From Psychrobacter aquaticus CMS 56 (GTDB lineage Bacteria; Pseudomonadota; Gammaproteobacteria; Pseudomonadales; Moraxellaceae), in NCBI RefSeq assembly GCF_000471625.1, contig NZ_AUSW01000019.1:1-64000 (forward strand): a stretch of DNA of 64,000 nt. Reading direction: 5' to 3'. Position 1 is the stretch's first letter, and each line of letters opens with the position of its first letter. The translations under genes were made by a program, and so were the position numbers. A model generated the notes under the pieces. It was not told where the DNA came from. It ran no database searches and worked only from the letters and a program-made list of their open reading frames with translations. Of this stretch, positions 17,654-32,114 are shown piece after piece.

Positions 17654-18739
17654 TTACAATAGTGAGCCGTAATCACTATTACCATCATCAATTGTCCCAA
17701 ACACTTCCGCTCGATTGACAATTTCTGCTGCCCAAGCGCGATGCGTGGCTGGTTCTAGCATGGTGTTGTTGTATTTGAATACTGCTTTAGCCTCGCTATG
17801 AAGTATCGCTTGCGCCTCATCCAAGGTACTTAATGGTACACAATACGCTTGTTGTACCAATGCGATTTGGCTGGGATGAATGACGGTTTTGCCGACCAAG
17901 CCCAAACTGACATCATGAGTCAATTCTTGCATAAATAACGTGGGTTGATCTAAGTATTCAAAAACTGGTGCGGTTAAATAAAAACCATGCGGCACAAAGC
18001 AGCCAAGTAGCTGATAGGCAAGAGTACCGATAGGGGTGTCATAGACGATGCTGTTTTTAGGACGTCGCAAACGTAGAGTAGCAAACAAGTCATTACCGCC
18101 AATACGCAGCGCAAAAATTGGCTGACTAAAGGCTTCTTTAAAGCCAATGGCCAGCTCTTGGTTGTGATGCGGATTAAAGAATGCAGCAGTTTCGAGTGTT
18201 GGCATTAGCAATTGATCAGTACTTAGGTTCTGACAAGCCATTCGCCAATCAGATAAACTACACATATCAACTTTTGGCATGACGAAGCCATCGATAAGAT
18301 CGATATGGTCATAGTCAGCCAGTTGCTGTAGCATCGCAGGATTGCGTGGGCGTATGAATACCAAGGGACGTATCGGATGTTGGGTTTGCTGCTCTGGCTG
18401 AAGTCCAGCTTTTCTCGATGGCACATTGATACTGTCGGCGTGATCGGCCCACGTATGAAGCAGCGTCTTTAAGCGCGCAAGTGCCAAATTGACATCATTA
18501 TGACTGACGGCATCTTCTAGACAAATAATAATGCTGTTGATCGTCGGAAGTTTGTCACGCTTAATGACTTGCCAAATATCTTGGCGAGTCGCAGGCATAT
18601 AAAGGCTGGCACCAAGCTGATAAGGATGATGAGTGTGCAGCTTGACCATCTCATGACGCTCAGTAATCAGATGTGCATAAGACTGAGTATAATGATAAAG
18701 GTTTGATTCGTGGTTTAGCATATCTGACATAATCGGCAT
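17654..18739 (-). CDS. HpcH/HpaI aldolase / citrate lyase-like protein of the Ter operon
   Basis: A 361-aa TIM-barrel protein of the C-C bond lyase type found in Ter operons. CitE-like features are IIICLEDAVSHNDVNLA (metal-binding acid), FIRPRNP, DGFVMPKVD, and GKTVIHPSQIALVQ near the C-terminus. It is the last gene of the leftward operon that starts with the ATP-grasp gene; the spacing to the StiP gene is 63 bp. Family analyses propose that this set makes or modifies a nucleoside-like metabolite, with this enzyme doing a carbon-carbon lyase or condensation step; the real substrate is unknown. Several in-frame ATGs lie near the start and none has a clear ribosome site. Confidence 0.85.
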   Translation of the reverse strand: MPIMSDMLNHESNLYHYTQSYAHLITERHEMVKLHTHHPYQLGASLYMPATRQDIWQVIKRDKLPTINSIIICLEDAVSHNDVNLALARLKTLLHTWADHADSINVPSRKAGLQPEQQTQHPIRPLVFIRPRNPAMLQQLADYDHIDLIDGFVMPKVDMCSLSDWRMACQNLSTDQLLMPTLETAAFFNPHHNQELAIGFKEAFSQPIFALRIGGNDLFATLRLRRPKNSIVYDTPIGTLAYQLLGCFVPHGFYLTAPVFEYLDQPTLFMQELTHDVSLGLVGKTVIHPSQIALVQQAYCVPLSTLDEAQAILHSEAKAVFKYNNTMLEPATHRAWAAEIVNRAEVFGTIDDGNSDYGSLL

Positions 18740-18802
18740 CGTGAATAGTGAGTGGTTATAAAAGGTAGGAGGTATGTATCATTGATTTTAATATAGCAAG
18801 AA

Positions 18803-19984
18803 CTAATGGTCTTTGGTACGCTGTTTGATAAGCGTGATGGCTTGATAAGGCAGTATTTTATCACCTAATACACTTATAGTGATGCTTCGCTGCGCACATA
18901 AATGTCTTAGCAGTATGGTATCGGGATGATTGGCAGTTGCCAGTAGGATACGTTCCGGATCGCGGCGTAATATTGCTCGTGTCGCCTCGGCAATGGTCGG
19001 CTTAATACGGTTGCGATTGGTGATATCGTATTCTGCTGCCAGCTTATCTATTAAGTCAGCGGTTTGGTAGCGTGGTTGCTTAAACATTGGCAAGCATTGA
19101 GGCGCTTTTGTTAAATTGCGGCGTGTTGCATCGATGTGATCGATAAAAGTTAAGCTATGATCTGCTTCAACTAAATTGTCGTAAAAGACACTGCGATGTA
19201 GCCCAGATTGTGGCTCAGTATATAAGCTGCGAGATATGAGTCCCGATACCGTACTATTTAGGAGTCCTGATGGTATCAACCAATCCTCCTCACTAGCAGC
19301 CAGCCAAGCGACGCCTGCTGGATCAGCAAGGGTCAATAATGGAATCGCGTCTGTGCCTTGATGAAAAATATTGGCAAAATTGCGGTGATCTGGGTCGCTG
19401 AATGCCTCTAGGCTACGAGCCAGCTCTTGATAAATGGCGCCCTTACCTGTCCAACCATCGACAAATACAATGGGACTGTTCGGATAAGCCTCTAGCAGCA
19501 TTTGTAAGGCAAGGGGATCAAGACCACGATCACGAATAATACTGATACCATAATGTACACTTGGTAAAGTATAGCCACTATTTGGATCGGATAATGCACG
19601 CTGTAACAATACGCCAATGGGTAAACCTGCTCGCACTAAGCTAACTAAGATTAGTGGATGCTCATCATTAACGTTTGTCTGAAAGACATGATGGAGCGTA
19701 TAAGCCAAATCAGCGATATCAGCCGCGGCTCTGATCGCGCCTTGTGCCAATGCCTGTGTATATAATTGCTCATGCATCGCACTTGGCGCATCTTCTAACG
19801 TCAACATATCTGAATAATGACGTTGTCCACTTTGGATGAGCGCTTCTTTTTGATTAACGGGTACGTCAGCCACGGCGTCTTTCTCGACAATATCGAGTAG
19901 CACAGTCACATCGCTGGCAAGATAGCTGCCTGAGCCATAATCTTCTAAATTCGCTCGTTTTATATTTATATTATTTAAAGTCAT
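18803..19984 (-). CDS. StiP-type phosphoribosyltransferase with PELOTA-like C-terminus
   Basis: A 393-aa protein of the family labelled 'cysteine protease StiP' in databases but related to orotate-type phosphoribosyltransferases. The PRPP loop is visible as IVFVDGWTGKGAIY near residues 172-185. The last ~60 residues (ILRRDPERILLATANHP to the end) look like the L7Ae/PELOTA-type domain fused to these proteins in Ter operons. I chose ATG 19984; GTG 19999 is also possible and neither has a clear ribosome site. It lies 48 bp after the HAD gene (49 bp upstream in the window) in a tight operon, suggesting it attaches ribose-5-phosphate to a base-like substrate. Confidence 0.85.
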   Translation of the reverse strand: MTLNNINIKRANLEDYGSGSYLASDVTVLLDIVEKDAVADVPVNQKEALIQSGQRHYSDMLTLEDAPSAMHEQLYTQALAQGAIRAAADIADLAYTLHHVFQTNVNDEHPLILVSLVRAGLPIGVLLQRALSDPNSGYTLPSVHYGISIIRDRGLDPLALQMLLEAYPNSPIVFVDGWTGKGAIYQELARSLEAFSDPDHRNFANIFHQGTDAIPLLTLADPAGVAWLAASEEDWLIPSGLLNSTVSGLISRSLYTEPQSGLHRSVFYDNLVEADHSLTFIDHIDATRRNLTKAPQCLPMFKQPRYQTADLIDKLAAEYDITNRNRIKPTIAEATRAILRRDPERILLATANHPDTILLRHLCAQRSITISVLGDKILPYQAITLIKQRTKDH

Positions 19985-20032
19985 AGTAGAAATATTCACA
20001 CTCGTTGTGATGACAGTTAGGTCATAGGTTTA

Positions 20033-20866
20033 TCAATGAGCATGACGCTGCTCGTGCAACTGACCATGATTGGGCATACCGTACCAGTCAAGCAGTTGTA
20101 GAAATGGTAAATCCGCTAGACTGTCACCAAAGCCAAAACTTGGGCGTTGACTGTCCAAATAGTTGTCTAATAAAAACTGCACTGCATTACGCTTGTGAAC
20201 GCCATGCGGTAATATCGCCAAATTATTGGCATTCACATGCACATAAAAGTGTTTATCAAAATCTGGTATGAGTACTGGCAGTTGCTTAGCCAGATCTGCC
20301 AGTATTTGATGGTCTTTTTGTGCGTGCTTGATAGCCAAATAGATGGTTAGTTCGCTCTCGTTAGAGCCATCATAGAAGATATCCATATGCGGTGCAAAAA
20401 CCAAGTCGTTATGCATATTTGCAGAATGACGTTTAATCAATTCTGACAGCTGGGATAATTTATCTTGTATAGGCGCAAGTGTATCGTACATATGCTGTTG
20501 CCACTCGCTTAATAACTGCCCATCAGACATCAAAATAATCGCACCGTGGGTTAATACTTGCCAGCTGTTAAAAGGCAGTTTAACGCGTTTGATTTCGCTA
20601 CGGTCACGGGCGGTGACCACGATTAAGTCAGTGCTAGCATGTAACCAATTAAAGAAGGTGGCTTGGCGCTGACTCATAAAGCTTAACGGCTCACCTTTTT
20701 TATTGACGGTCGCACAAACCAAGCTCTCAGGCTCAGTGGTCGGCAAATTCCATGCGTCAATTTTACGCTGGGTTTGGAATAGAGTGTCGTCCAAATCCAT
20801 AAGAGCATAGGGTCTGGTAATGTTTGGATTGGATGCAAAAAATGGGGTGTTCATAAAAGTGTCCAT
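20033..20866 (-). CDS. HAD family hydrolase of the Ter operon
   Basis: A 277-aa haloacid-dehalogenase-type phosphatase. Motif I is MDLDDTLF (Asp24 nucleophile, Asp26 acid), motif II is the VVTARDRSE segment, and motif IV is FGFGDSLADLPF. The arrangement fits Cof-like/sucrose-phosphatase-like HADs with a C2 cap. In this operon it would remove a phosphate from an intermediate made by the two phosphoribosyltransferases (inference from context). Spacing is 30 bp from the upstream PRTase/TRSP gene. A second ATG at 20854 is equally plausible as start. Confidence 0.85.
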   Translation of the reverse strand: MDTFMNTPFFASNPNITRPYALMDLDDTLFQTQRKIDAWNLPTTEPESLVCATVNKKGEPLSFMSQRQATFFNWLHASTDLIVVTARDRSEIKRVKLPFNSWQVLTHGAIILMSDGQLLSEWQQHMYDTLAPIQDKLSQLSELIKRHSANMHNDLVFAPHMDIFYDGSNESELTIYLAIKHAQKDHQILADLAKQLPVLIPDFDKHFYVHVNANNLAILPHGVHKRNAVQFLLDNYLDSQRPSFGFGDSLADLPFLQLLDWYGMPNHGQLHEQRHAH

Positions 20867-20896
20867 AAGTGATAGGTTCGAATATCAGAAAATGAT

Positions 20897-22189
20897 TTAA
20901 AGTGCAGCACCTACCACCAATACATTATCCAAGCCTTTCCACATGTCATCGACACTGTCTGCCGATGTTTCAACGCATAAGACGATCAAGTCCCATTCAT
21001 TGGGTTTAACATTATAAGCAAAATTGGTCATACCAAGCCCATAATTATCACTAAAGCTCAACATTGTGGTAATCGCCCCACCAAGTGCGATCGGCGAGCG
21101 GGTCAATGCGCTAAAGTTAACGACAGAGGTGGTTTCAGAATTTTGCTTTTGGGTATGTGTCTCAAGCCATTCAGCCAATAAAAAGGGCAACCAAACAAAT
21201 TCATTGCTTCCTAATACCAAAATTCGTTGAGGCAACTGCGCATCATTAAAATTTTCTTGACCACTAAATTTTTTAAATGCCGTCTGAAACTTTGCCAAAT
21301 AATTTGCAAGGCCCTCTGTGCTATCTAACGTTGGCAAACGTCCCCAATTACCTGTGTTACCAAGCGCTTGACTGCCAGCCTCGGTCGTGTCTACTGATGG
21401 CATGGTGATAGGCTCAGGATTGGCAGCATCCGTCCATTGCCAAGCGCCAGATAGTAGGTGATGCCGATGAAAGTCAATGCCAACTAAACGATCAGCCATG
21501 CGCTCAGGCATCATGCCATCTGATGTTTTGTCGGTATTTTCTTGATCTAATGACCAGTCAACCAACGTGGTTAAATGTACTTGCTCCAGTTGCGTCAGTC
21601 CAGCATGACGTAAGGCGGTCACGACATTCACGCAAGTATTGCCTGTGGACGCTTCATCATCGACCATAATCAGGGTTTTGCTGGCAAGTAATTGCGCTTG
21701 TGTGACTTTATCTTTACTTTGATAAATCAAATGCTGGCTAGCATGACTGTGATCTTCGCTAAAAGTGGTCAGTAGCATATCGGTACTATTGTCGTCATGT
21801 TGCGCATGACGAGTAGAGTTCAATAATAACGCATGTGGATAGGGCGTTTGTAGTGCTTGATGCACACCTGCGGATAAGCCAACGGCTGTTTCTGCCATAC
21901 CAATAACCAAAATTGGCTCAGGTAAATCACTGGGGACTAGGTTTGCCAAATCTGTAAAAGCGTGACGCATCGTGCACGGTGCGACGGGAATATGACGACC
22001 CAGTACTTTTGAGACGAATAAAAATGCCCGTTTCGGATTGATACGCTGCGCAAACCCAAGCAAGTCTTCTAGTTGATAGCCGTCATCTTTTTTTGAATCA
22101 TCGTTACTCGTTGGGGCATTAGTCTGATAGGTCAGATCAAGTGTACCGCGAGGCAGGGTGATGGTTGTGCTGTGTTGCTTGTTTGGCAT
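20897..22189 (-). CDS. phosphoribosyltransferase with C-terminal TRSP domain
   Basis: A 430-aa protein. The N-terminal half is a type I phosphoribosyltransferase with PRPP loop LIMVDDEASTGNT at about residues 173-185 and VIGMAETAVGLSAGVHQ before it. The C-terminal half, from about residue 300 (RILVLGSNEFVWLPFLLAE), matches the TRSP domain that accompanies it in Ter operons. The start has a clean AAAGGAA site. Together with the StiP-type protein it gives the operon two distinct PRTases, which underlies the proposal of a nucleoside-like product. The spacing to the TerD-protease gene is 43 bp. The substrate is unknown. Confidence 0.87.
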   Translation of the reverse strand: MPNKQHSTTITLPRGTLDLTYQTNAPTSNDDSKKDDGYQLEDLLGFAQRINPKRAFLFVSKVLGRHIPVAPCTMRHAFTDLANLVPSDLPEPILVIGMAETAVGLSAGVHQALQTPYPHALLLNSTRHAQHDDNSTDMLLTTFSEDHSHASQHLIYQSKDKVTQAQLLASKTLIMVDDEASTGNTCVNVVTALRHAGLTQLEQVHLTTLVDWSLDQENTDKTSDGMMPERMADRLVGIDFHRHHLLSGAWQWTDAANPEPITMPSVDTTEAGSQALGNTGNWGRLPTLDSTEGLANYLAKFQTAFKKFSGQENFNDAQLPQRILVLGSNEFVWLPFLLAEWLETHTQKQNSETTSVVNFSALTRSPIALGGAITTMLSFSDNYGLGMTNFAYNVKPNEWDLIVLCVETSADSVDDMWKGLDNVLVVGAAL

Positions 22190-22232
22190 TCATATTCCTT
22201 TGTACTTTTAATTTTATATAATTATCAGTTTT

Positions 22233-23462
22233 TTAACCCTGACATCCTACCAGCCATAGCGCCGCGCGGCTTTGTTTGCTCAATTGCGGTGTGGTCAGGG
22301 GTGCCGCTTTGGCGTGTGACGAATCTGATAAACTGTCTAAGCCAATCCCAGCGCTCGCGAGCAAGGCAGATAATAACTGAAATTTCACCGCGTAGTTCAT
22401 ATTTTGTGCATGCTCGTGGACAAGGCTGGAGGTCACCATACCGATCACTTCGCCAGTCGGCAGTAATAAAGGGCTGCCGCTAGAGCCGGGTTGAATGGGG
22501 GCTGTGAATTGCATGTAACGAATATCATCGCCAAACCCTGTCAGTCCTGAGATACAGCCCTGCGTGACTTGTAGCTGACTACTAAGTCCTGATAATGGGA
22601 ATCCTAACGTCGTAATGGTTTCACCCAACATATCAGAACATTGCTGCGCTAATGGCAAATAGCTTGGCAGAGGATCACTCACTCTAATAATGGCTGAATC
22701 GCTACCGATATCGCTGAGTACCACTTGCGCCTCGCGATCAGGCTGCGCTTGCTGCCGTACACCAATCATCGCCGCCGACTCAATGACATGGTAGCAAGTC
22801 AATAAATGATATGGGTCAATCGCAAAGGCCGTTCCTGTCCATGTTTCACCTGATTGCACTTGACGAGGTGGACGCGTCTCATTATTAGCATGTGTGCGCT
22901 GCTGTTGCTGTGCTGCTTGAATGAGCGCATGCGTATTCGGTGGACGGATATCAAGGCTGACTTGCACTCGATGCTCTAGGCTCGCTAATCCTTGGGTGGC
23001 TTCACCAAGGGCACGACATTTAAACTGACCATCACGTCGGTAGATCTCCAAAACAATTGCCGCTTTGATATGGCGCTCATTTGCTGTGAAATCATATTTA
23101 ATCGCGCCATTATTGAGTATCAGACTGACATTTTTTAGCTCAACAGCTGGCAAGTTAAGGGTTGGCTCGTGATAAACATATGCAATCAGCTGTAAAAAAC
23201 TAATCCCTTCTGTATCGAATAACTTGGGTAAATCCAGCTGCCAACTGCTTGGGTGATCCGCATTGTCTATTGTAGCCCAGTCCTTAGATTCATGAAGATA
23301 AGCAGGGCTGCAAACCGCCTTACGATGCTGGTCTAGCGGCAGCCAGATCAGTCCCAGTTGTTGACCAAATTTAAGATGATTTGTCGTAGAGAAAGCAACT
23401 GAACATAATGGTTGCGCGATAACCGTATTTGCCCCTAACACTAACATCGTTTGTGCTGTCAT
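22233..23462 (-). CDS. TerD-like domain fused to trypsin-like serine protease
   Basis: A 409-aa two-part protein. Residues about 90-165 (LIAYVYHEP, KAAIVLEIYRRDGQFKCRALGEATQGL) match the second half of TerD domains. From about residue 205 a chymotrypsin-fold protease follows with an apparently complete triad: His225 (TCYHVIE), Asp255 (GSDSAII) and Ser328 (PGSSGSP). There is no signal peptide, so it should act in the cytoplasm, possibly on Ter components or under their control. The N-terminal ~90 residues are divergent. It is second in the operon, with a GAGAGG ribosome site. A protease embedded in a small-molecule biosynthetic operon is unusual. Confidence 0.87.
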   Translation of the reverse strand: MTAQTMLVLGANTVIAQPLCSVAFSTTNHLKFGQQLGLIWLPLDQHRKAVCSPAYLHESKDWATIDNADHPSSWQLDLPKLFDTEGISFLQLIAYVYHEPTLNLPAVELKNVSLILNNGAIKYDFTANERHIKAAIVLEIYRRDGQFKCRALGEATQGLASLEHRVQVSLDIRPPNTHALIQAAQQQQRTHANNETRPPRQVQSGETWTGTAFAIDPYHLLTCYHVIESAAMIGVRQQAQPDREAQVVLSDIGSDSAIIRVSDPLPSYLPLAQQCSDMLGETITTLGFPLSGLSSQLQVTQGCISGLTGFGDDIRYMQFTAPIQPGSSGSPLLLPTGEVIGMVTSSLVHEHAQNMNYAVKFQLLSALLASAGIGLDSLSDSSHAKAAPLTTPQLSKQSRAALWLVGCQG

Positions 23463-23551
23463 CGTGCGCCTCTCATTGAATGTACACTCAGTAATTATCA
23501 GTCTAGTAGTTATCAGTCTTTGGTGGTTGTCCGTTCCTCAACATCACTTGC

Positions 23552-24703
23552 TTACTCGACGTCATTTTCTTCTATTTTTACACCCACCATAATTGAGCGT
23601 ACTTGGCAGGGTGTTATTTGTTGCGTGATGTCAGCCAGCTTGGGTTTATCGGTCAGTCCTAACCAATAGGCAAAGCCGATTTGTGTCAGATCCACACCGC
23701 TGTGAGTCGTGTAAGCAATGCCACCAGACGGGCGACTATTGATTTCGAGTACCCGATGCTGCTCGTTGTCATCGGCTTTGGTTTGGACACTGACGATGCC
23801 ATCACAGCCAAATGCTTTAATCAATGGAATGACGACATCCATGACGGCTTGCTCGTAGCCGATATGCTGAATTTTACCTGTTTTATAGCGAGTGACGGCG
23901 GCCAAAACTTCACCATATTCACAGACCACGTCGATAGAATATTCTTGTCCAGATAAATAAGGCATGAGTAGCATAGGAATAGGGCTCTCACGCACCATTA
24001 GGCTGTTTGCATAGGCACTTATAAATTGGGCAGTGTTAATCTTTTTTTCTTCAGTAAAGTACAGATGCTCAAAGCTATCGTATTGCTCGTCCGTTGCTCT
24101 TTCTGAATCCAGCCGCCAAAACCCTTGCGCAAAAATACCAGTAACTGGCTTGACACATAATGGCTGATGACCATGTTCGGTAAGTAAAGCTTCAAGTTCT
24201 GCAATATTGTCAAAGCGCCAAGCATCTGCTACGGGGATATTGTGCTGATGGCATTGTTGCATGAAGGCAAATTTATCATCGATCGTCTCTAACGCTGTGA
24301 CGCTGGTCGCACCTGTTAATAAACGGATACCAGCTGCAGCAAATATCTCACGATGCGCTTCATAGTCAACGCCATTGCGACCAGTCAGTAATACGTTAAC
24401 ATTGTTCTGCTGGGCGTGTTCCAAGACGAACTGCCAACGTGGCATCAATGGTATAACAGGTTCAAAAATGACTTGCTCATCACTGTCTACAACATTTGCA
24501 TATGGTTCATAATAGATGCGATCGGCAAACTCAAAAACTTCGGGTCTATCATGACGATGTGAGGCTATGATATTAAACGGCGTGTCAGATTGGACTTTTA
24601 ATGCTTGTAGGCTGGCTAACATATCGCGCTGGCTTGACTGACCTTCCGCTAACCAAGCGGCTGTCGATGTTGTATGATGGCTATCGTTAGCAAGGTTATC
24701 CAT
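23552..24703 (-). CDS. ATP-grasp ligase of the Ter operon
   Basis: A 383-aa ATP-grasp protein. Seen are the dinucleotide-binding-like N-terminal part, then DDKFAFMQQCHQHNIPVAD, PLCVKPVTGIFAQGFWRL (ATP-contacting Lys), YLSGQEYSIDVVCEYGEVLAAV and VLEINSRPSGG (metal-binding Glu/Asn), the order found in carbamoyl-phosphate-synthase-like ligases. It would join a carboxylate to an amine or similar nucleophile at the expense of ATP. It is the first gene of the six-gene leftward operon, with the promoter in the spacer shared with the terA-like gene. Family and context are firm; the substrate is unknown. Confidence 0.88.
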   Translation of the reverse strand: MDNLANDSHHTTSTAAWLAEGQSSQRDMLASLQALKVQSDTPFNIIASHRHDRPEVFEFADRIYYEPYANVVDSDEQVIFEPVIPLMPRWQFVLEHAQQNNVNVLLTGRNGVDYEAHREIFAAAGIRLLTGATSVTALETIDDKFAFMQQCHQHNIPVADAWRFDNIAELEALLTEHGHQPLCVKPVTGIFAQGFWRLDSERATDEQYDSFEHLYFTEEKKINTAQFISAYANSLMVRESPIPMLLMPYLSGQEYSIDVVCEYGEVLAAVTRYKTGKIQHIGYEQAVMDVVIPLIKAFGCDGIVSVQTKADDNEQHRVLEINSRPSGGIAYTTHSGVDLTQIGFAYWLGLTDKPKLADITQQITPCQVRSIMVGVKIEENDVE

Positions 24704-24844
24704 AATGCTCTCTTGTTATAAGTGTTAGATATAATTGGATAACTCAGTGTCGTCATCGCAACACTATTAGCAATGTAGGTAAGACCTAAATAGTGGTCAG
24801 TGAAGTTAAAAACCCAAGTCCCTGTACTGCTGATAGCAGAGACT

Positions 24845-24850
24845 ATTATA
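24845..24850 (-). promoter_or_regulatory. candidate -10 of the Ter biosynthetic operon
   Basis: TATAAT on the minus strand, with only a weak -35. Transcription would begin near 24838, leaving a leader of about 135 nt before the ATP-grasp start codon. Confidence 0.35.
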
Positions 24851-24971
24851 TACAAATGCTAGACGTTATAAATACTTCTAACAAAATAGCCTTAAGTATT
24901 TTTGAGATCATTATCTAGTTATTTTTCGCAAGTTACTGAATGGGCATGCTGATTAAAAAACAGGACATTCG

Positions 24972-24980
24972 TGCTACTAT
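24972..24980 (+). promoter_or_regulatory. candidate extended -10 of the terA-like gene
   Basis: TGCTACTAT fits an extended -10 (TGn-TACTAT). No good -35 is seen. The leader would be about 50 nt, ending in the AAAGGA ribosome site. Confidence 0.35.
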
Positions 24981-25038
24981 ATGACGATAGCTAGCATAAT
25001 AAACACAACGCCATAATACATTATTTAAAGGACATATG

Positions 25039-26331
25039 ATGAGCCAGGACCAATCTCAAAAATTAGTGGCAGGTGCCAATGCGCCACTCCCAACGGACAA
25101 CATCAGTATCCGTATCTTGAGCCAAAACGCGATCGATTGTGCCGCTTATCGTCTGACGAGTGATGGCAAGGTACGCGGCGATGGCGATATGATATTTTAT
25201 GGGCAGACGCGTAGTGATGATGGTAGTGTCAGCTTTCGTGGTCATGACAGTGATGGATTTTTTGATATCAATTTGCCGTCTCAACCTGCCAGTATCGAAA
25301 AGATAGCCCTAGCGTTTTCCAGTGCGCAGACGTTGGCTCAAGTCGGTGATGTGGATATTCAAGTATTGCAAGGCAGCCAAGTTTTAATGACTTGTCAATT
25401 AAGCGCTACTGGGCGTGTTGAGAAGGCGATTATTTTAGCCGAATGCTATCGTCGGCAGGGTAGTTGGAAGTTTCGTTTTATTGCACAAGGTTTTGAGGGC
25501 GGCCTAAAACCATTGTCTGAGCATTTCGGTGTTGAAATTGCTGATGAAGCGCCCAGTCAGACTCAAGCCCAGAATCAGTCACAAAGCCAAGCACAAAACC
25601 AGTCGCAATCCGTCAATACACAGCGTCCAATCAACACACAAAAAGCGGGCAATGCCTCTCAAGCGAGTACACCGCCACCGATTCCAGCCAACCCTTCAAT
25701 CAATTTGAGCAAAATTACCTTAACCAAAAACCAATCTAGTATCAATCTCAAAAAACGTGACGACTTTGGTAAAATTTCTGTCAATTTAAACTGGAATCAA
25801 CGTCCAGATATTGACAAACAGGCCCCCAAAAAAGGACTCTTAGGCGATCTTTTTAAGCAGCATAAGTCAGGCGGTATTGATCTTGATGTCGGCGCGATGA
25901 TTCATCTTAAAAATGGTGAAAAGACCCTCATTCAAGCACTAGGCGATCGTTTTGGTAGTCTGCAAACAGCCCCTTATGTTTGCTTGCGTGCCGATGATAG
26001 AACTGGGCAGGTTAGCGGCGGGGAATGGCTTGATATTAACGGTCAGCAGTGGGCACAGATTGAAGAAGTATTTATCTTTGCCTTTATTTATGATGGTGCA
26101 CCAAACTGGGCGCAAACGGATGGGGTAGTAACCATCAATGTGCCAGAGCAGCCACCAATTGAGACGCGCTTAACAGAAGGCACAGGAAATTTACCGATGT
26201 GTGCCATTGCGCGTTTGGTGAATCAGCAAGGCAGTATTAACGTTGAGCGCATCAACCAATATTTTAAAGGTCATCAAGAGATGGATAAAGCCTTTAATTG
26301 GGGATTTAGTTGGAAGCGTGGTCGTAAATAA
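25039..26331 (+). CDS. terA: two-domain TerD family protein, TerA-like
   Basis: A 430-aa cytoplasmic protein with two TerD-type domains. The first spans roughly residues 20-170 (IRILSQNAIDCAAYRLTSDGKVRGDGDMIFY and GSWKFRFIAQGFEGGLKPL). A Gln/Ser/Asn-rich linker follows (QTQAQNQSQSQAQNQSQS), then a second domain from about 225 (INLKKRDDFGKISVNLNWNQ, GGIDLDVGAMIHLKNGEKTLIQALG). This architecture and the larger size match TerA of ter operons, where TerD-type domains bind calcium. ATG 25036 and 25039 are adjacent; 25039 has better spacing from AAAGGA. It is transcribed away from the biosynthetic operon and converges on terZ. Confidence 0.8.
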   Translation: MSQDQSQKLVAGANAPLPTDNISIRILSQNAIDCAAYRLTSDGKVRGDGDMIFYGQTRSDDGSVSFRGHDSDGFFDINLPSQPASIEKIALAFSSAQTLAQVGDVDIQVLQGSQVLMTCQLSATGRVEKAIILAECYRRQGSWKFRFIAQGFEGGLKPLSEHFGVEIADEAPSQTQAQNQSQSQAQNQSQSVNTQRPINTQKAGNASQASTPPPIPANPSINLSKITLTKNQSSINLKKRDDFGKISVNLNWNQRPDIDKQAPKKGLLGDLFKQHKSGGIDLDVGAMIHLKNGEKTLIQALGDRFGSLQTAPYVCLRADDRTGQVSGGEWLDINGQQWAQIEEVFIFAFIYDGAPNWAQTDGVVTINVPEQPPIETRLTEGTGNLPMCAIARLVNQQGSINVERINQYFKGHQEMDKAFNWGFSWKRGRK

Positions 26332-26449: not shown

Positions 26450-27055
26450 TTAGGCGTGCGGTGTAATTGAAGGCATCAAGTCATGGAAGGTACGACCAGA
26501 AGCAGTCTCACCAATGGCGTGCATTTTCCATTCGTTGTTGTGACGATAGACTTTTGCCATAATCATGGCCGTGTGTCCACCTTGCGCTGATAAATTATAG
26601 CGGGCGACCTCAGCGTTATTATCGGCGTTAATAATACGACAAAACGCGTTTGCTACGGTCTCAAATGTCTGACCAGTAAAGCTATTCACTGTAAAGACCA
26701 GCGAGACAACGTTGGCAGGGATTTTTGAGAGATCGACATTAATGACTTCATCATCGCCATCGCCGTCACCAGTGCGATTATCACCTGTATGAAGGATACT
26801 ACCATCTTTTGATTGAAGCTGATTGAACCAAATAGCATCGACGGCTTGTTTGTTACTATCAAACATAATGCATGAGGCGTCTAGGTCAATAGAGTCGCCG
26901 CTACCACCACCGAATAATTTACCTAGGAAACCACCTTTCTTATCTTGTGGTCCTTGTGCGACATCCCAACCTAAACCCAATTTTACTTGAGTAAGCTCGC
27001 CGCCAGCTTCTTTATTAAGCGATATTTTTTGACCTTTTTGTAAGCTAATTGCCAT
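26450..27055 (-). CDS. terZ: TerD family protein, TerZ-like
   Basis: A 201-aa TerD-domain protein. It has KGQKISLNKEAGGELTQVKLGLGWD, an inserted KKGGFLGKLFGGG stretch that is typical of TerZ, SIDLDASCIMFD, the calcium-site region [15 protein letters not shown], and NSFTGQTFETVANAFCR. Family members bind Ca2+ and are required for tellurite, phage and colicin resistance or general envelope stress in ter systems. The start has AAGGA. It follows the AIM24-like gene by 57 bp with no terminator between them, so the two are probably co-transcribed. Confidence 0.87.
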   Translation of the reverse strand: MAISLQKGQKISLNKEAGGELTQVKLGLGWDVAQGPQDKKGGFLGKLFGGGSGDSIDLDASCIMFDSNKQAVDAIWFNQLQSKDGSILHTGDNRTGDGDGDDEVINVDLSKIPANVVSLVFTVNSFTGQTFETVANAFCRIINADNNAEVARYNLSAQGGHTAMIMAKVYRHNNEWKMHAIGETASGRTFHDLMPSITPHA

Positions 27056-27112: not shown

Positions 27113-27865
27113 CTACAACACATTGTTCAAAAATCCGTTGTTGCCGCCGCGTCCACCTGAGCTGGTACCTAAGATACTTTGCAGCCAGCCTTGATAACTA
27201 TCGCGATTGCGTGAACAGATAATGACTTTACCAGTACCTGAAAAGTTCAACACCATCCCTTCGCCACTGGTGACTGAATTAATAATGTTGCTCATGATGC
27301 CTTTTTTCTTACTGGTCGAAACAGAAAGCTTATAATCAAGCTCTGAATTCCAGCACACCACGTGTCCGTTGTCGATAATGACGTCTTTATCAGGTGTCAC
27401 ATCAATCTCAAACAGTGAACCAAAACCTGACACGACGACTTGGCCTTGCCCTTGTGTCTGCATAACCATAAAGCCGCCAGTATCACCAAACACCGCACCG
27501 CCCAAATTACGTTGAATTTTAGCTCTAATATCAACGCCTGTTTGTGCCGCCACAAAAGCACCATCGCTTAATGTATATTGGCATGTACCGACATCGATGA
27601 TTTGCATATCGCCATCCAGCGTTGGGGCAAGTAAGCAATCACCTTCACCATTGACGGCTTCGATCTGCTGCTGAAATAAGGATTCATCGTTTGCAAATCG
27701 GCGCATCAATGATTGTATGAAACCACCTTGCAACTTGCCTTTAAGCTCAAGATTAGACTCCATCATGACCATGGCATTGGCTTCGCAAAAGATTGACTCG
27801 CCTTTTTTTAAATGACAATGTAAAAAAGGCTCAATAGTACCGATTAAGCTGAATGTATCGGCCAT
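27113..27865 (-). CDS. AIM24 / TIGR00266 family protein
   Basis: A 250-aa beta-rich protein of the AIM24 (TIGR00266) family: GTIEPFLHCHLKKGESIFCEANAMVMMESNLELKG, GGFIQSLMRRFANDESLF, GGAVFGDTGGFMVMQTQGQGQVVVSGFG, and a Gly-rich tail GTSSGGRGGNNGFLNN. Such proteins recur in Ter and other stress islands and may associate with membranes or with TerD proteins; no enzymatic activity is known to me. Its own AAGGA site precedes ATG 27865. It lies between a terminator (27957-27999) and terZ, so it appears to head a two-gene transcript. Confidence 0.85.
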   Translation of the reverse strand: MADTFSLIGTIEPFLHCHLKKGESIFCEANAMVMMESNLELKGKLQGGFIQSLMRRFANDESLFQQQIEAVNGEGDCLLAPTLDGDMQIIDVGTCQYTLSDGAFVAAQTGVDIRAKIQRNLGGAVFGDTGGFMVMQTQGQGQVVVSGFGSLFEIDVTPDKDVIIDNGHVVCWNSELDYKLSVSTSKKKGIMSNIINSVTSGEGMVLNFSGTGKVIICSRNRDSYQGWLQSILGTSSGGRGGNNGFLNNVL

Positions 27866-28065: not shown

Positions 28066-28641
28066 TTAAACATTTACACCATAAGAGCCAGCTAATGGTC
28101 CAAGACCACCGCTGAAGCCTTGACCAACGGCACGGAACTTCCAGTCACCACTGTGACGATATAGCTCACCAAAAATCATTGCAGTTTCAGTGCTGCCATC
28201 TTCTGATAGGTCATAACGGGCAATTTCAACATCGCCATTATCATTCAAAACACGAATATAGGCATCACCAACTTGACCAAAGTTTTGGTTACGACCTTGA
28301 CCTTCATAAATGATAGCGCAAACTACTACTTTACTGACATCAGCGGGAACAGTAGCAAGGTTAATTTTGATTTTTTCATCATCGCCATCCCCTTCGCCCG
28401 TACGGTTATCACCAGTATGCTCAACCGCGCCGTTGTCTGACTTTAAATTATTAAAGAAAATGAAATCTTGGTCATTACGGACTTTTCCTGCTTCATTGAC
28501 CAAAAAGCCAATCGCATCCAAGTCAAAATCTTGACCGTCAGTAGCGCGTGGATCCCAGCCAAGACCGACTGTAATATTGGTTAAACCAGGCGCTTCTTTT
28601 GATAGGTTTACGTTGCCGCCTTTTGTTAAGCTAATAGCCAT
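28066..28641 (-). CDS. terD: TerD family protein, TerD
   Basis: A 191-aa canonical Ter[85 protein letters not shown] (calcium-binding acidic cluster) and [27 protein letters not shown] longer frame upstream exists, but ATG 28641 has AAAGGAT seven bases upstream and the family N-terminus. It is a paralogue of the gene at 31419-31994, with near-identical stretches even at DNA level around the acidic motif. It is bounded by terminators on both sides, so it is probably its own transcript. Confidence 0.93.
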
Positions 28642-28976
28642 ATAAATATCCTTTGGATTAATAATTAAGTGGATTGGGTGATACAAAAAATGATCTAAAA
28701 ATAGTGCAGTGTTGAATGTAGACGCATAGATGCTCAGTAAACCTAACCACCATGCCCTGCATATTGTTACGTTTTACTATACTAAGCGTTTGCCCAGTAA
28801 GCAAGTCGTATTTTGTGCATTGGCCATATGTTTACTAAGGAACATAATAAGCCTATATCTCTGATACTTTATAACACTTTTTCATACAAGAGGTAAGGTG
28901 CTGTTATGAAAAAATCAGCCAATTTAGCTATTAGACTAAAGGCTTCAGCCATTTACCAAAGCATTAAGATAGAGAT
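28642..28976. other. spacer between terD and glsA
   Basis: 335 bp that must hold the leftward terD promoter and, at its right end, the glsA terminator. I see no coding frame and no clear promoter motif. Confidence 0.4.
28909..28944 (-). terminator. intrinsic terminator of glsA
   Basis: AGCC and TTTAG (28917-28927) pair with CTAAA and GGCT (28936-28944) with a two-base bulge; on the minus strand six T follow. It lies 33 bp past the glsA stop. Confidence 0.65.
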
Positions 28977-30125: not shown

Positions 30126-31190
30126 TTAATTCAAACGTGCCGCTTCAGCCTTACGATGTTTCAGAGATGCCCATAACGCAAAACCAATAAAGGCGATACC
30201 GATAAGACCTGTAATCAGCTCAGGTACATGGAACTTCACTGATAACAACATGATGACAGAAAGTGCGCCGATGGCATAATGCGCCCCATGCTCAAGATAG
30301 ATAAACTCATCAAGCGTGCCTTTATCCACCAAAAAGATAGTCATAGAACGTACGAACATCGCACCAATGGCAAGACCTAGCATGATAACGATCACGTCAT
30401 TGGTAATAGCAAATGCCCCAATCACACCGTCGAAACTAAATGAGGCATCAAGTACTTCTAAGTATAAGAAACCAATAATACCGCCTTTCATAATAGCGCT
30501 AGTTACCTCACCAGTACTATTGCCCTGAGCATCAAGTTCTTCCTCGAGATCACCCTCAAGCATACCTGAGATTACTTGTACGCCAAGATAAACCAAGATC
30601 CCCCAAACGCCTGCGATCAATACCGCACCAGCTTGTTCAACTGGCGCCCAAGATACTGAAATCATCAAGACAATCAGTGCTACGAAGACGCTCATCGCAT
30701 CGACTTTGCCCAGTTTTGCTAAGCGACTCTCAAGCCAGTCAAACCAATGTACTTCTTTTTCATCAAAAATAAAGTTTAAGAAGACCAATAATAAGAAAAT
30801 ACCACCAAAGGCTGAAATTTCAGCATGATGCGCCATTAGTCTGGCTGAATATTCTTCAGGATCATTCAATGCCAAATCGATAACTTGCATCATACCAAGG
30901 TCAGCGGTAACGGCGACAATGACAATAGGGAATACCAAGCGCATACCGAATACAGCGATCAAAATACCAACAGTTAAAAATATCTTCTTCCAAAATTCGT
31001 CCCAGCCTTTAAGGACTGAGGCATTGACCACCGCATTATCAAACGATAATGAAATCTCCATGACGGCCAAAATAGCGGTAATAGATAGGGTGGCTATTAA
31101 GCCGCCGATACCACCATGTGAATATCCCCACCAGGCCGCTACCGCTAAGGCAATGGCAGTGAAGATAAAATCGAAATAAAAATGTCTCAT
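30126..31190 (-). CDS. TerC-family integral membrane protein (DUF475)
   Basis: A 354-aa polytopic inner-membrane protein of the DUF475 branch of the TerC/LysE-like superfamily. Several hydrophobic segments are visible, with the family's acidic membrane motifs MEISLSFDNAVVNA and LEVLDASFSFDGVIGAF, which resemble metal-ion binding or transport sites. TerC proteins are linked to tellurite resistance and, for relatives, to manganese export. ATG 31190 is chosen because AGGA lies six bases upstream; the frame continues to 31271 without support. It is flanked by terminators. Strict equivalence to TerC is not claimed, since the classical protein is a different subfamily. Confidence 0.88.
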   Translation of the reverse strand: MRHFYFDFIFTAIALAVAAWWGYSHGGIGGLIATLSITAILAVMEISLSFDNAVVNASVLKGWDEFWKKIFLTVGILIAVFGMRLVFPIVIVAVTADLGMMQVIDLALNDPEEYSARLMAHHAEISAFGGIFLLLVFLNFIFDEKEVHWFDWLESRLAKLGKVDAMSVFVALIVLMISVSWAPVEQAGAVLIAGVWGILVYLGVQVISGMLEGDLEEELDAQGNSTGEVTSAIMKGGIIGFLYLEVLDASFSFDGVIGAFAITNDVIVIMLGLAIGAMFVRSMTIFLVDKGTLDEFIYLEHGAHYAIGALSVIMLLSVKFHVPELITGLIGIAFIGFALWASLKHRKAEAARLN

Positions 31191-31245
31191 GACACATCCT
31201 GTCTGGTTGCGTAAAGCTAAGGTCGGTCTAGTATAGACACGCACC

Positions 31246-31273
31246 GCAAAAAAGTGGCTATTGCTAACCACTT
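31246..31273 (-). terminator. terminator-like hairpin upstream of the TerC-family gene
   Basis: AAGTGG (31252-31257) pairs with CCACTT (31268-31273), with inner TA/TA pairs; on the minus strand it is followed by a T-run. It lies only about 60 bp before the TerC-family start, so it may end the upstream transcript or act as an attenuator. Confidence 0.6.
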
Positions 31274-31418: not shown

Positions 31419-31994
31419 TTAGATATCAACGCCATACTGCTGACACATGGCTTGCAAACCACCTGAATAGCCTTGACCAACGGCACGGAATTTCCACTCA
31501 CCGTTATGGCGATAAACCTCGCCAAAGACCATGGCCGTCTCGACAGAGTAGTCTTCCGCTAAATCAAAACGCACAACTTCAGTGCCAGTTTCTTCATTAA
31601 CGACACGGATAAAAGCGTTTGCCACTTGGCCAAAGTTTTGATTGCGAGCCGCTGCATCATGGATGGTGACAGTCACAACGATTTTGTCGACATCAGCAGG
31701 TACTTGAGTGAGGTTTACTTTGACCAACTCGTCATCACCATCGCCTTCGCCAGTACGGTTGTCACCTGTATGCTCAACCGCGCCATTGTCAGACTTTAAT
31801 TGATTATAAAATATAAAGTCGTGATCACCGCGTACTTTGCCCGCAGTATTTAACAAAAACACGCTCGCATCAAGATCGAACTCAGAGCCAGAAGTGGCAC
31901 GCTCATCCCAGCCCAAACCAATTAATAACTTGGTTAAATTTGGGTCAGTTTTGGTGAGTGATAAGTTGCCGCCTTTATTGAGTGATAAAGCCAT
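31419..31994 (-). CDS. TerD family protein, TerD/TerE paralogue
   Basis: A 191-aa TerD-domain protein: [86 protein letters not shown] and [20 protein letters not shown]. It corresponds to TerE or a second TerD of ter operons. The frame opens at 32087, but ATG 31994 has AAGGA seven bases upstream and the family N-terminus. It shares long near-identical DNA stretches with terD at 28066-28641, indicating duplication or selection for near-identical calcium sites. It is the right-hand end of the Ter island. Confidence 0.92.
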
Positions 31995-32114
31995 GAGGTT
32001 GTCCTTATTATTAGAGTCAATTGAAAATTTGAAGATACTTATAATCATAAAAAAAGCAACGTTGCGCCAAAAATGGCGCAAGACCATCGCTTAATGACGT
32101 TCTATCATAACAAC

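Follow-up and report, generated by a model that had tools for sequence, protein, structure and literature searches.

A Ter-associated operon of Psychrobacter aquaticus and its predicted phosphoribosyltransferase pathway

The window analyzed here, 64,000 nucleotides of Psychrobacter aquaticus CMS 56 (contig NZ_AUSW01000019.1, positions 1 to 64,000), carries between 17654 and 24703 on its reverse strand an operon for an ATP-grasp ligase, a TerD-linked protease, two phosphoribosyltransferases (PRTases), a HAD phosphatase and a lyase. The operon is a well-preserved copy of the Ter-associated biosynthetic module predicted by Anantharaman, Iyer and Aravind in 2012 (Mol BioSyst 8:3142; as cited in passages of PMC8115787, PMC7824862 and PMC5571608), a cluster that is already known and has families of its own in Pfam; the sequence-only reading of this stretch had proposed an undescribed pathway, and that proposal falls. 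On balance, we favor the view that the module encodes a pathway that uses phosphoribosyl pyrophosphate (PRPP) to make a ribosylated small molecule, which TerD proteins would read. What is directly seen is six intact genes, PRTase folds, strong conservation, consistent co-occurrence and an L7Ae-type domain on StiP.

A known module, well preserved

In the direction of transcription, from 24703 down to 17654, the gene order is ATP-grasp, TerD-protease, PRTase_2/TRSP, HAD, StiP/PELOTA and CitE-like lyase. The six co-directional open reading frames contain no internal stop, and the gaps between them, from the end of the ATP-grasp gene onward, are 89, 43, 30, 33 and 63 bp. Shared strand and short gaps are the grounds on which the six genes are predicted to be an operon.

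23552-24703, reverse strand: ATPgrasp_Ter ligase, first gene of the operon (Pfam PF15632, 7.9e-34)
22233-23462, reverse strand: TerD-like domain with a trypsin-like serine protease (Trypsin_2, 2.4e-21; TerD, 3e-4, under the Pfam cut-off)
20897-22189, reverse strand: PRTase_2 phosphoribosyltransferase with C-terminal TRSP (Pfam PRTase_2, 1.2e-52; TRSP, 5.3e-16)
20033-20866, reverse strand: HAD phosphatase (Pfam PF08282 Hydrolase_3, 1e-7, above cut-off)
18803-19999, reverse strand: StiP with PELOTA_1 (Pfam PF11202, 7.2e-80; PF15608, 3e-23)
17654-18739, reverse strand: CitE-like C-C bond lyase, a TIM barrel, last gene (Pfam PF15617 C-C_Bond_Lyase, 2.6e-96)

Much of the sequence-only reading survives this comparison. 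It had described six genes separated by 30-90 bp, which agrees with the measured 30-89 bp; its domain assignments are those returned by Pfam; and its operon tied to Ter genes is matched by co-directional genes that have, within 8 kb, one TerC-like and four TerD proteins as neighbors. Its further remark also stands: the published prediction of a nucleoside-like metabolite is compatible with a set that comprises a ligase, a lyase, a phosphatase and two PRTases.

The module has given its name to Pfam families, among them one whose description is "ATP-grasp in the biosynthetic pathway with Ter operon", and the biosynthetic prediction is repeated in passages of PMC8115787 and PMC7824862. The Psychrobacter locus shares with the predicted module the ATP-grasp, PRTase_2-TRSP, HAD, StiP-PELOTA and C-C lyase genes beside TerD genes; the four core genes (PRTase_2/TRSP, HAD, StiP and lyase) stand together as a predicted operon, with TerD/TerC-type linkage and intact catalytic residues. 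It differs in placing a TerD-trypsin protein between the ATP-grasp and PRTase_2 genes, and in a genome that lacks TerB: across the 99.99% complete assembly (3.2 Mb in 38 contigs), no TerB family match was found at E<=0.001, so the canonical terZABCDEF set is not present. Both differences may already be covered by the 2012 description.

The ter locus of Klebsiella and other enterobacteria, whose biosynthetic cluster is predicted in part of PMC8115787 to make a nucleoside-like metabolite, has the same core gene order. That locus is also plasmid-borne, and StiP matches occur in 2568 of 72,556 plasmid records from all hosts, whereas the Psychrobacter StiP is present in 33 of 37 genomes of the genus, which suggests vertical inheritance; many named Psychrobacter records have a StiP that is 79-86% identical to that of the window. 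A phage-borne counterpart exists in the Ter system of the Acinetobacter jumbo phage vB_AbaM_ME3, where a StiP relative shares 32.5% identity; Ter synthesis genes of the jumbo phage are noted in a passage of PMC7824862. Another relative (38% identity) lies at MT836648.1:7367-8275, in an unannotated 15-kb faecal phage record. Psychrobacter ter genes and a reversed terA are described in part of PMC5822837, the main text of which returned none of the terms "phosphoribosyl", "ATP-grasp", "TRSP" or "citrate lyase".

StiP and the other enzymes

StiP is predicted to be a PRTase fused to an L7Ae-type RNA-binding domain. Fifteen proteins matched the StiP profile below its cut-off, and all 15 are Pribosyltran proteins above Pfam's own cut-off. 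Aligned to these 15 by hhalign, the StiP profile gave a probability of 95 (E 3e-8) where controls from other families gave 0.1-0.2%, a test that is partly non-independent in that the StiP profile itself had found the 15; the folds are independent evidence. An AlphaFold2 model (mean confidence, pLDDT, 93) has structural matches to HPRT and PyrR folds and, through its C-terminal domain, to Snu13. The best Foldseek E value is 2.5e-3, with none <=0.001. In a further structure comparison CriT takes the top row, tied with HPRTs. Residues R123, G125, D181, W183, T184, K186 and G187 are kept in all 87 aligned rows and G182 in 86; position 185 is G or A in another StiP alignment, so that the putative PRPP loop reads DGWT[G/A]KG. 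The StiP reading frame opens with a GTG; the ATG at codon 6 (19984) falls where the mechanically called start of several orthologues lies, and is the likely start.

The tail of StiP had been called PELOTA-like. The PELOTA_1 match bears this out, yet an L7Ae-type domain is the better name, as the C-terminal profile matches L7Ae (7e-4) and Foldseek returns Snu13 and L7Ae chains with probability 1.00 (E >=3e-3). In its 87 rows E338, T340 and R341 are invariant and align to the E, T and K of the L7Ae motif GANEVTK. The full motif by which L7Ae/eL8 proteins contact kink-turn RNA is N-E-x-x-K. StiP instead has A/G-E-A-T-R, with alanine (80 rows) or glycine (7 rows) in the slot of the asparagine; the glutamate and a basic residue are thus constant and the full motif is lacking. 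PELOTA_1 has already been linked to kink-turn binding, in a passage of PMC5571608. A conserved non-coding RNA partner for the domain was sought and set aside: Rfam gave no family anywhere in the window at gathering score, and in the genus alignment the 332 bp upstream of the operon hold promoter-like elements and no recognizable RNA.

The second PRTase is of a different family. PRPP loops of type I phosphoribosyltransferases follow DD-x-x-(S)TG, and PRTase_2 joins such a loop (D177-D178-E179 and G183 in 80 of 80 rows, T182 in 79) to a PRTase fold, which marks it as a putative type I enzyme; structural matches to the PRTase_2/TRSP model cover mainly residues 25-262. In the phosphatase D24, D26, T85, K180, D248 and D252 are kept in 84 of 84 rows; its profile places it probably nearest the IIB/Cof type, with TIGR01484 HAD-IIB at 6e-7 and the best NCBIfam models all of Cof/IIB type, every one under cut-off. 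The lyase keeps R130, E183, D217 and the K284-x-x-x-H288-P289 group in 81 of 81 rows, its closest sequence in the PDB being 3qll ("Citrate lyase", 3.8e-5). ATP-grasp residues K144, K185, E254, E320 and N322 are found in 54-55 of 55 rows, and the protease residues H225, D255 and S328, which we take from trypsin motifs to be the catalytic triad, in 28 of 28. All these counts include the window and leave out short rows, and the roles of the conserved residues across the six enzymes are presumed from family knowledge. Degenerate catalytic residues, the sign for which the sequence-only reading had advised looking, were not found: the residues are near invariant, with a non-canonical PRPP loop in StiP.

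No usable relative emerged when StiP, PRTase_2 and ATP-grasp were each searched as a single sequence against the PDB sequences. None of the five enzyme genes matched a PADLOC defence model at E<=0.001, and we discount a known defence system as the identity of these enzymes; the protease domain of the TerD-protease does match RT-Protease_XI (6e-18) and a HamA model (2e-4).

Core, accessory genes and the variable slot

The six genes, treated at the outset as one equal set, separate by their distribution into a predicted core of PRTase_2/TRSP, StiP, HAD and lyase, and two accessory genes, the ATP-grasp and the TerD-protease. A scan of genome contigs with an eight-sequence StiP alignment yielded at least 594 candidates, 584 of them confirmed, and the best 80 were analyzed, a choice biased to close relatives; with seven further genome regions and the window these make an 88-row locus map. 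Taxon groups follow record titles, and because the operon is cut by the contig end in some cases, absences may be overstated. Among these best 80 of 584 loci, StiP (the query) is present in 80, HAD in 78, PRTase_2/TRSP in 76 and the lyase in 76; a non-protease TerD protein accompanies 71, the ATP-grasp 55 and the TerD-protease 27. The order ATP-grasp, (TerD-protease), PRTase_2, HAD, StiP, lyase repeats in Psychrobacter, Pseudomonas, Enterobacterales and others, and so recurrent a gene set means that the grouping is not due to chance.

Genome-wide surveys sharpen the pattern. Across the phylum StiP and PRTase_2 score above cut-off in the identical 12 of 398 genomes, and the lyase exceeds 250 bits in 8 of those 12; in the remaining 386 genomes it never does, and the next match reaches 99 bits. 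Within the genus PRTase_2 occurs in the identical 33 of 37 genomes that hold StiP, as does ATPgrasp_Ter at >100 bits. PRTase_2 is not near StiP in 4 of the 80 loci: two of these genomes hold a long match elsewhere (positions 1-187 and 1-161 of the 188 in the profile, where the window's own match spans 1-166), G557 has partial matches only, and G559 has none, its contig starting 0.95 kb before StiP. Since the partner lies elsewhere in two unlinked genomes, the pairing cannot be put down to linkage alone; strict obligacy fails on these same four loci and on the genome-wide absence in G559, and we describe StiP and PRTase_2 as near-obligate partners on profile evidence. HAD is likewise not obligate: in locus L122, with PRTase_2 directly beside StiP, no HAD was found.

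The ATP-grasp behaves differently. Among 20 StiP-positive genomes, ATPgrasp_Ter exceeds 100 bits in 8, and the best match in the other 12 is <=42.3 bits; many weak matches are long frames of the size of carbamoyl-phosphate synthase, from which size alone we infer their identity. TerD genes are present in 19 of the 20. Taken together, the PRTase pair would form the heart of the module, HAD and the lyase its usual partners and the ATP-grasp a decoration. Two loci of Mesorhizobium and Rhizobium (L096, L108) hold the PRTase_2, StiP and HAD trio, with no lyase or TerD in the locus. Three genus genomes (L125, L126 and L127) have five co-directional genes between PRTase_2 and HAD; those of L126, the only one of the three scanned, match an ABC transporter for dipeptides of the DppA/B/C/D/F type.

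Between the ATP-grasp and PRTase_2 genes lies a slot of variable content. In the window it holds the TerD-protease, whose N-terminal domain is by profile comparison a TerD relative (hhalign probability 98, E 1.6e-13, with only the C-terminal half of TerD covered). This protein occurs in 16 of 20 Psychrobacter, 11 of 15 Pseudomonas/Azomonas, 1 of 30 other and none of 23 Enterobacterales loci; in two more of the others a trypsin-like protein lacking TerD is present. Twenty of the Enterobacterales loci possess an ATP-grasp, and there the slot is empty, with -49 to 60 bp separating that gene from PRTase_2. Psychrobacter slots also hold NYN-LOTUS-TerD proteins (L045, L055, with TerD just under cut-off, L128 and L129), NYN-LOTUS proteins that Pfam does not match to TerD (L052, L038) and a LOTUS-TerD piece (L051). 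Relatives of NYN are present in 4 of the 20 mapped Psychrobacter loci and two further genus regions, excluding L130, which at an equal 54,017 bases appears to be the same contig as L052 and is counted once. L128 has the NYN protein and no TerD-protease, other NYN loci carry both or an NYN protein without TerD, and 4 of the 20 Psychrobacter loci carry neither. For TerD combined with NYN or LOTUS, nothing relevant was found among the open-licence PMC papers listed.

The slot also receives a DnaJ-domain protein (L047), an MFS protein (L037) and MHYT genes (L039). An inverted Mrr-type restriction endonuclease occupies it at L052:3511-4689 and matches a PADLOC type IV model; an inverted protein of three Rid (L-PSP) domains lies beside the TerD-protease at L126:6023-7288. 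Many slot genes look like ordinary insertions, and only those fused to TerD argue for function. These might belong to a signal-and-responder circuit, in which a ribosyl signal made by the core gates interchangeable TerD-linked effectors, either the TerD-trypsin protease or the NYN-LOTUS-TerD proteins as predicted RNases; we offer this as a speculative scheme that is probably not correct.

Beyond the operon, past the divergent TerA-like gene, come TerD paralogues, an AIM24 protein, a glutaminase and a TerC-like membrane protein.

24704-25035, no strand: intergenic region between the divergent genes, holding a conserved promoter-like element for the operon at 24872-24845 (reverse strand)
25036-26331, forward strand: TerA-like TerD-domain protein, divergent neighbor (TerD, 1.2e-27)
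26450-27055, reverse strand: TerD paralogue (TerD, 3.3e-56)
27113-27865: protein of the AIM24/TIGR00266 family amid TerD genes, with a relative in 22 of 80 loci
28066-28686, reverse strand: TerD paralogue (TerD, 1.1e-83)
30126-31271, reverse strand: DUF475/TerC-like membrane protein (PF04332, 3.4e-113; TerC, 2e-15)
31419-32087, reverse strand: TerD paralogue (TerD, 9.9e-88)

The promoter-like site at 24872-24845 sits on a stretch conserved across the aligned genus loci (ATTTGTATATAAT); such sites are not enriched in the region (15, against a shuffle mean of 17.4). In the TerC-like protein at 30126-31271 the DUF475 match is far stronger than that to TerC.

Proposed pathway and its alternatives

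In the pathway that we favor, PRPP would be the donor for both PRTases. PRTase_2 would transfer phosphoribose from PRPP onto an acceptor, and HAD would remove the 5'-phosphate from the resulting phosphoribosyl compound. StiP may carry out a second phosphoribosyl transfer or exchange, either on what the first has produced or on a precursor of it, with RNA perhaps serving for holding or regulation. The CitE-like lyase would make or break a C-C bond in the carbon skeleton, and the ATP-grasp could attach a carboxylate, such as an amino acid, as a decoration specific to certain lineages. TerD-domain proteins would read the ribosylated product, the TerD-protease being one responder here; TerD as a possible reader of specialized nucleotide derivatives is raised in a passage of PMC7159879, and a signal-synthesis model for Ter in part of PMC7824862. 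Every one of these reactions is proposed, and their sequence is guesswork.

Several observations weigh against this pathway. The usual PRPP loop has two adjacent acidic residues, and that of StiP lacks the second. PRTase_2 aligned with the 15 PRTases at an hhalign probability of only 50, and a direct comparison of the StiP and PRTase_2 PRTase-domain profiles was weak (probability 9). G379 (locus L121) has PRTase_2, StiP and HAD, no lyase in the locus and no TerD match genome-wide, from which it follows that the core can do without Ter sensing. The sequence-only reading had noted that the product is not known to have been named; no experimentally named one was found among the open-licence PMC papers listed. 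Lastly, terZ-F alone confers tellurite resistance on E. coli MG1655 (in part of PMC8115787), and the module is therefore not needed for that phenotype.

Other readings of StiP draw on the same evidence. Its Pfam description reads cysteine protease, and "cysteine protease StiP" is the name in 10 of the 12 plasmid rows listed; yet in the 87 rows no position with >=95% conservation is a cysteine, the PRTase fold appears both by model and by profile, all 15 sub-cut-off matches are Pribosyltran proteins, and PF11202 is called PRTase_1 in other Pfam-based tables (part of PMC13109261). We consider the protease ruled out, with scarcely any prospect of revival. A subtler proposal is that StiP acts as does PyrR. 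PyrR is an RNA-binding attenuator with a PRTase fold, and a StiP regulator of this kind would sense PRPP or a nucleotide product and bind RNA through its L7Ae domain, with little catalysis. The place of PyrR among the top structural matches, the L7Ae match with its invariant E338, T340 and R341, and the non-canonical PRPP loop all speak for it. Set against these are the replacement of the L7Ae asparagine by A or G in all 87 rows, the lack of any Rfam family in the window at gathering score and the seven PRTase-domain residues invariant in 87 of 87, which are just as compatible with catalysis. We judge such a regulator decidedly unlikely.

The chemistry itself could also differ, if one or both PRTases O-link ribose-5-phosphate to a glycan, polyol, lipid or RNA that HAD then dephosphorylates, in place of any nucleoside pathway. 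In other systems O-ribosylation of glycans is proven for PRTase and HAD pairs, and Bcs3 CriT-CrpP and Cj1432, which perform PRPP-dependent O-ribosylation, likewise join a PRTase fold to a HAD phosphatase. They have, in the parts of their reports consulted here, a glycan acceptor, fused domains and a HAD with an alpha-helical cap, where the profile matches of the operon HAD point, under cut-off, to the Cof/IIB type; those parts mention no L7Ae domain such as StiP has. This alternative seems to us improbable, although, with O-ribosylation proven for such pairs, a non-nucleoside riboside should be kept in view and "nucleoside" is not the sole chemistry to consider for the PRPP-using pathway.

What Ter systems do, and which compound their predicted metabolite is, have been standing questions since 2012, as far as the open-licence literature shows. 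A chromosomal copy in most genomes of an environmental genus makes Psychrobacter a tractable place to seek that metabolite, and the dependency pattern ranks the entry points: PRTase_2 and StiP first, HAD and the lyase next, the ATP-grasp last. The protease annotation of StiP on plasmid records misleads, because the fold contradicts the name, and proven glycan ribosylation by PRTase-HAD pairs broadens the chemistry worth screening. Should the core indeed make a signal for exchangeable TerD-linked responders, the arrangement would be analogous to cyclic-nucleotide defence with its swappable effectors.

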